Assembly: GCA_937899725.1 (NCBI GenBank)
Contig: CALCCA010000064.1
Location: 1 to 64,000, forward strand
Reading direction: 5' to 3'
Length of the DNA: 64,000 nucleotides
Origin: an uncultured Halomicronema sp.
GTDB lineage: Bacteria; Cyanobacteriota; Cyanobacteriia; Phormidesmidales; Phormidesmidaceae
The position numbers and the translations under genes were made by a program. Of the stretch, positions 24,118 through 24,814 are shown one piece after another. How positions within the stretch are numbered: the first letter of the stretch is position 1; every line of letters begins with the position of its first letter. Below the pieces are notes generated by a model. It was not told the DNA's origin. It did not search any database and saw nothing but the letters and a program-made list of their open reading frames with translations.

Positions 24118-24220
24118 CCTCAACCCAAGCTAAAATCAACGACTTGTCACCCCAGCGATTGCGCGATCGTGGGTGGCCAGCCCTCAACGGCTGTTCTGAC
24201 CTGATAGGAGCATTAGTCCC

Positions 24221-24814
24221 ATTTACGCTCGCCCCCTCTCTCGACTTATCGAAGAACTCCAGAAGCTGCCCGGCGTGGGGCCCAAGACCGCTCAGCGGCT
24301 GGCGCTGCATCTGCTCAAACGACCGGATGGTGAGGTGCAAGCCCTAGCCCAAGCCCTGATCGACGCCAAGTCTCAGATGGGGTACTGCTCGATCTGTTTT
24401 CATCTGTCGGCTGAGCCGGTGTGCGATATCTGCAAATCCACCAGCCGTGATTTGCAAACGCTGTGCGTTGTGGCTGATTCTCGGGATGTCATCGCGCTGG
24501 AAAGAACCCGCGAGTACAAAGGCAGATATCACGTGTTGGGTGGGATGATTTCGCCGATGGATGGCATTGGCCCTGAGCAACTCAACATCGGACCGCTGGT
24601 GCACCGGGTTAACAAAGAAAACATTCAGGAGGCCATCATTGCGATCAGTCCCAGTATCGAGGGCGACACGACGACGCTTTATTTGGGACAGCTGCTCAAA
24701 CCATTTACCAAAGTGACCCGCATTGCCTTTGGCTTGCCGATGGGCGGTGATCTGGAATATGCCGATGAGGTAACCCTCGCCCGCGCCCTCGAAGGTCGGC
24801 GGCAGCTGGACTAG
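24221..24814 (+). CDS. recR: Recombination protein RecR, apparent ATT start
   Basis: RecR acts with RecF/RecO in RecA loading and gap repair. Counting from ATT 24221 it has 197 residues. Family parts are visible in order: [26 protein letters not shown] (helix-hairpin-helix), a C4 zinc finger in [16 protein letters not shown], and a TOPRIM domain with [15 protein letters not shown] and GRYHVLGG. Between the in-frame TGA at 24197 and GTG 24275 there is no ATG, GTG or TTG. The GTG would delete most of the helix-hairpin-helix. ATT 24221, with AGGAG ten bases upstream, fits the family N-terminus (usually VYTRPL). I infer a non-standard start; a sequencing error is the alternative. Confidence 0.9.

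Follow-up and report, generated by a model that had tools for sequence, protein, structure and literature searches.

Where does translation of recR begin when its reading frame offers no ATG, GTG or TTG ahead of the conserved protein? The gene lies on the + strand of the window, by which we mean the whole stretch of DNA analysed here (64,000 nucleotides from an uncultured Halomicronema sp.), and an in-frame stop, TGA 24197–24199, stands upstream of it. From that stop the frame runs CCT GAT AGG AGC ATT AGT CCC ATT TAC GCT CGC CCC CTC, and the first canonical codon (ATG, GTG or TTG) to follow is GTG 24275, within the helix-hairpin-helix; the mechanical open reading frame, which allows ATG, GTG and TTG starts, spans 24275–24814 (179 aa) and opens on that GTG. 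The initial annotation, made from the sequence alone, had noted that no canonical codon lies between the stop and GTG 24275 and had placed the start at ATT 24221, with AGGAG ten bases before it. In-frame reading confirms the absence, and the motif stands at the distance given (AGGAG 24206–24210, spacing 10 nt). A second in-frame ATT, at 24212 and 1 nt past the AGGAG, had gone unmentioned. The features that bear on the start are these:

24221–24814, + strand: recR coding sequence, 197 codons plus stop, counted from ATT; start placed by comparison of relatives
24221–24223, + strand: proposed start codon ATT; ATT in 33 and ATC in 23 of 56 family regions, at the onset of amino-acid conservation
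24206–24210, + strand: Shine-Dalgarno (SD) motif AGGAG, 10 nt before ATT; a family motif within 22 nt in 56/56
24197–24199, + strand: in-frame upstream stop TGA, which bounds the possible start
24218–24220, + strand: CCC adjoining the start; 55/56 family regions have pyrimidines at both positions just ahead of codon −1
24212–24214, + strand: second in-frame ATT, rejected as start; ATT here in 3/56, 1 nt from AGGAG
24239–24367, + strand: RecR helix-hairpin-helix PF21176, residues 14–56 of P0001; contains the first canonical codon
24275–24277, + strand: first in-frame canonical codon, GTG; callers restricted to ATG/GTG/TTG begin here, 18 residues short

The product is RecR. It scores 265.9 bits against TIGR00615 (cut-off 162.55) and carries the full RecR domain set of helix-hairpin-helix PF21176, zinc finger, Toprim and C-terminal parts (PF21176, PF02132, PF13662, PF21175), with a RecR_HhH domain score of 73.3 bits; the solved RecR structure 3vdp_A aligns to residues 8–202, and recR has one match in its own genome. 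At the recR start of the window, a promoter and terminator scan returned no promoter-like site and nothing that explains the start, RNA folding of the start region gave nothing unusual (z 0.29), and an Rfam search at gathering thresholds likewise found nothing that explains it.

Start of recR within the family

A search of the same family matched 58 of 63 genomes, from which we read 57 start regions (in G029 only residues 156–204 are matched); with duplicates removed and L058 included, these form a set of 56 distinct start regions. We number codons backward from the conserved Tyr of Y(T/A)RPL. Codon −1, which is ATT 24221 in the window, is ATT in 33 regions and ATC in 23, and is ATG in none. 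The initial annotation had proposed comparing the first codon of recR among relatives: no canonical codon occurs within six codons of the Tyr (−6 to −1) in any of the 56, and ATT or ATC occupies the homologous codon in every one. In 47 of them there is no canonical codon anywhere from the upstream stop to the Tyr, and in the other nine the only ones lie at least 12 codons upstream. AGGA, GGAG or GAGG precedes the start within 22 nt in all 56 regions at a median spacing of 8 nt. The AGGAG letters around codons −5/−6 are preserved in more than one frame, which points to an RNA signal and not to protein.

Across the family, codons −8 to −2 have an amino-acid entropy between 2.0 and 3.8 bits; it falls to 0 at −1 and stays at or below 1 bit over the next 21 codons, and synonymous codons vary within the conserved stretch that follows the start. 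A longer N-terminus shared by relatives, which the initial annotation had named as evidence that would tell against its start, does not appear, nor has the other such outcome, a standard codon at 24221, come about. We also considered an upstream extension of RecR, and rejected it because the family comparison reveals no conserved N-terminus before codon −1.

Variation between ATT and ATC at codon −1 is no evidence by itself, since the internal Ile codon 9 shows a similar mixture (29 ATT and 27 ATC in the 56 family regions). As the sequences stand, the argument for the start rests on stop-bounded loci and on lineages with ATG at the homologous codon. In L011, L025 and L027 a stop is followed by only CCC and then ATC or ATT before the Tyr, and further stop-bounded starts read TAA ACC ATT (L089), TAG CTT ATT (L097), TAG ACC ATT (L160) and TAA ACT ATT (L264). 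Comparison therewith gives strong support to ATT 24221 as the position at which RecR almost certainly starts.

Two control genes were included. Matches were obtained in 54 of 60 genomes for argJ and 55 of 60 for recO, and 30 loci of each were read. By the same procedure as for recR, argJ has ATG at the aligned start in 30/30 loci; recO has ATG within 7 codons of the aligned start in 30/30. An SD motif precedes the start in 5/30 argJ and 7/30 recO loci (17-base window).

Start codons and Shine-Dalgarno motifs across the class

In a class panel, 376 of 386 genomes were matched and 110 loci were read among the matches listed, 30 of them given and 80 chosen (two of the given loci were already in the set, and L058 repeats L046). 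A named set contributed 118 loci, again among the matches listed, through a pattern that demands Tyr plus CGN or CCN and so misses genes differing there. An outgroup search yielded loci from 30 of 32 genomes, giving 29 distinct regions. Altogether 313 recR loci reduce to 289 distinct regions, 24 having been dropped as identical over the 150-nt start region.

Codons −6 to −1 hold no canonical codon in 87/107 further class-panel regions and in 81/97 named regions, both among the matches listed. Across all 289 distinct regions, ACG at −2 is found in 102 (103 when a region with CTG after ACG is included), ATT, ATC or ATA at −1 in 94 (68, 25 and 1, respectively), CTG in 18, GTT, GTC or GTA in 13, ACG at −1 in one and other codons in three; L135, L157 and L400 fall outside the start-codon classes. 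The remaining 58 are canonical, with the codon exactly at −1 in 20 and at −2 in 20. Scored as canonical are L204, L268 and L272, whose TTG at −6 overlaps the SD motif, and this places three regions without SD in the window used among the canonical ones. Named records of Nostoc, Anabaena and Calothrix show ACG (e.g., L174, L198, L222). Within the single genus g58, codon −1 is ATT in L089, ATA in L150 and ATG in L151. From these alignments the weak recR start is seen to extend far beyond the genome of the window, with a codon that differs between lineages, which the initial annotation had not described.

In the outgroup set 22 of the 29 regions are canonical; the seven that are not include six CTG regions of family f20, itself within the class. 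Among regions truly outside the class, 19/20 have a canonical codon at −6 to −1, the exception being L400, and ATG is present in the Gloeobacterales record L167 and the melainabacterium L191. A canonical recR start is thus probably ancestral. A tree of 207 proteins, built with the first 8 residues after the start omitted, has 26 start-codon changes among seven labels on its best topology. Switches between canonical starts and the rest number nine on that tree, of which only three are forced by supported branches; their number must be regarded as uncertain because only 27 of the 201 inner branches are well supported.

Family f20, which probably represents picocyanobacteria, has some features of its own. 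Its recR has an apparent CTG start, mostly CTG AGC GGC TTC (L162–L165, L374–L377, L380, L403) and usually without an SD motif; L164 has an in-frame stop two codons before the CTG, and L382 and L383 carry TTG at the CTG position. In two of its genomes, G402 and G430, the recR match is split in two (query 9–138/139 and 140/142–203) by gaps of 93 and 54 bases, a pattern suggestive of an insertion midway through RecR.

An SD motif (AGGA, GGAG or GAGG at −20 to −4) accompanies 209/228 non-canonical regions from all sets, vs 4/36 canonical regions of the panel and named sets, the panel and named regions in both counts being among the matches listed and the 36 including the melainabacterium L191 (Fisher 1.2e-23, for regions that are related to one another). 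The canonical regions of the outgroup set have the motif in 3/22. For AUU, AUC and AUA regions of all sets the count is 87/94 in the 17-base window, leaving 7/94 without it. CTG regions are the exception, with the motif in 6/18 and none in 12/18. Only three independent pairs could be drawn on supported branches; a mean of 0.9 agreed with the association between SD motif and start class, 0 opposed it and 2.1 did not differ. The association of SD motif and weak start is strong by counts and comprises few independent events.

Explanations for a retained weak start

The alignments demonstrate the absence of canonical starts, the start position, its conservation and the motif with its spacing. To explain them we propose that translation would begin at AUU 24221, directed by AGGAG 24206–24210, and that initiator tRNA would set formyl-methionine there despite the mismatch. 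Selection may retain a poorly initiating codon in much of Cyanobacteriia, AUU or AUC here and ACG, CUG or GUU elsewhere, mostly coupled to a strong SD motif that would make up part of the lost initiation. RecR would thereby be kept low, at a level set by the start-codon discrimination of initiation factor IF3. We infer that recR is likely a weak-start gene filtered by IF3 as infC and Streptomyces sigR are, a reading that includes initiation at AUU, formyl-methionine and IF3 repression. It seems somewhat probable that what selection favours is a RecR dose that is low or can be adjusted. More tentatively, and just short of what we would call probable, it may be the start's weakness that selection holds and not the particular codon, with AUU, AUC, ACG, CUG and GUU interchanging under IF3 gating and ACG serving as a regular start codon, kept for a long time in Nostoc-like lineages.

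A less likely account, though one to be taken seriously, accepts the same start and regards its weakness as tolerated: little RecR is needed, a strong SD motif suffices, and codons drift without any role for IF3 or dose. It departs from our preferred explanation in the inferred part only, and the likelihoods of the two overlap. Turnover of codon identity, as in the 26 changes on the best tree, is consistent with drift, as is the presence of ATG, TTG or GTG in some lineages (the 36 canonical panel and named regions, among the matches listed). However, a single base change would convert ATT or ATC to ATG, yet ATG occupies codon −1 in 0/56 family regions, and non-canonical starts prevail in the class panel (the 87/107 regions above, among the matches listed). 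A start-switch study likewise argues against easy drift, with only 1 AUU and 2 CUG among the descendants of 61,358 ancestral AUG starts (PMC5622118).

For the ACG lineages in particular, it is conceivable but unlikely that the real start is the GTT that follows, or that ACG is edited to AUG at the RNA level, as happens in plant chloroplasts. GTT does follow ACG in 96/103 ACG regions, 13 other regions have GTT, GTC or GTA at −1 without ACG or CTG, and chloroplast ACG-to-AUG editing is mentioned in PMC9845219. The spacing nevertheless fits ACG: the median distance from SD motif to ACG is 8 (exactly 8 in 70/102), like that of the family AUU and AUC regions, and to the next codon it is 11. ACG is also retained where the next codon is GCT (four regions) or CTG, AAC or ATC (one each). 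Among Thr codons at −2 before Val or Ala, 100/107 are ACG, vs 10/75 in the stretch formed by the Tyr codon and the 29 codons after it; these ACG-lineage regions are related and their counts are not independent. CTG stands at −3 in 6/7 of the non-ACG Thr regions vs 0/100 ACG regions, and the stop-bounded L201 reads TAG ACA ACG TAT. RNA editing of ACG would moreover be unable to explain ATT.

It is very improbable that RecR begins at some other upstream non-canonical codon such as ATT 24212, which is in frame and has an ATT counterpart in L002 and L003. This codon is 1 nt from the AGGAG and is matched in 3/56 family regions only (L001, L002 and L003), so the conserved position is 24221; the residues between 24212 and 24221 are not conserved. 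Hardly credible are a start at GTG 24275 (which a caller that allows only ATG/GTG/TTG would choose), a sequencing or assembly error, or a frameshift joining recR to another frame, given that the codons before 24275 keep their amino acids as synonymous codons vary, that GTG occurs at this codon (codon 18) in 13/56 family regions only, that the pattern is repeated in 57 start regions of separate family genomes, and that 28/231 non-canonical regions have, within 60 nt, an out-of-frame ATG whose frame runs open as far as the recR start.

Retention of a weak start by a repair gene in a large part of a class, even as the codon turns over, would suggest that start weakness is itself a selected trait. 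If our explanation holds, a single gene would supply ACG, CUG and GUU as further natural start codons, the amount of a recombination mediator would depend on the condition of the translation machinery, and a connection between IF3 and recombination could be put to the test in laboratory strains. In practical terms, gene callers that accept only ATG/GTG/TTG will truncate RecR or give it a false extension in many cyanobacterial genomes, as happened here.

Comparison with infC, sigR and other known starts

Well-characterised bacterial genes with non-canonical starts are few according to PMC5472188, which describes IF3 as a repressor of the non-canonical starts of infC (ATT, ATC) and sigR (GTC). 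infC is autoregulated through such a start, ATT in E. coli and ATC in Streptomyces (PMC5472188).

In the family of the window, the conserved part of cyanobacterial-type infC is preceded by ATC or ATT in frame in 15/15 loci read, and 12 of these 15 have no canonical codon there; L309, L312 and L313 have TTG nine codons before the aligned start. The infC of the window's own genome reads TTG GAG GCA ATC GCT ATC GTT AGA, and the sole in-frame canonical codon, TTG, overlaps the GGAG. The initial annotation had likened the recR start to the ATT start through which infC is autoregulated by IF3. This parallel holds as an analogy, favoured by the ATC codons behind GGAG in the genome's own intact infC and weakened by the overlapping TTG. 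recR of the family resembles infC in having a conserved AUU or AUC start behind an SD motif, and differs in that its codon identity shifts across lineages. Since RecR is not a translation factor, any IF3 control of recR would act in one direction, without the feedback loop of infC.

Many genomes of the family give two IF3-type matches (L284–L297, L299–L313). In the higher-scoring type an ATG mostly lies shortly upstream of the conserved part; the cyanobacterial type has ATC or ATT in frame. Outside the window, the genome's own second IF3-type gene (L296; G000:C125:19710-20210; 233 bits) contains an in-frame TGA, and its length near the N-terminus differs from that of the close relative L293, whose frame is open; its sequence suggests either a pseudogene or an error in the assembly. 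The other IF3 gene of the genome (L404) has an open frame.

One study reportedly deals with genes that prefer non-AUG starts (arXiv:2008.10758). A literature search on non-AUG starts, in a partial library, found nothing on recR start codons among the titles and abstracts listed. Proteogenomics of Nostoc sp. PCC 7120 revised eight genes that reportedly use ATA and ATT starts, and recR is absent from the main text of that report (PMC8557916). These genes are cyanobacterial as well, whereas the named Nostoc recR records analysed here point to ACG.

The closest likeness outside translation is to sigR. In Streptomyces its GTC start holds the protein dose down, and the start is misannotated in available streptomycete genomes, according to PMC5472188. 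recR would share with sigR a non-canonical start in a gene outside translation, with IF3 repression setting the dose. The two differ in that sigR involves one codon in one genus and has been demonstrated experimentally, whereas recR, known from sequence, spans much of a class with AUU/AUC, ACG, CUG and GUU. Taken together, recR is best read as a weak-start gene of the infC and sigR kind, one whose codon turns over through much of a class.
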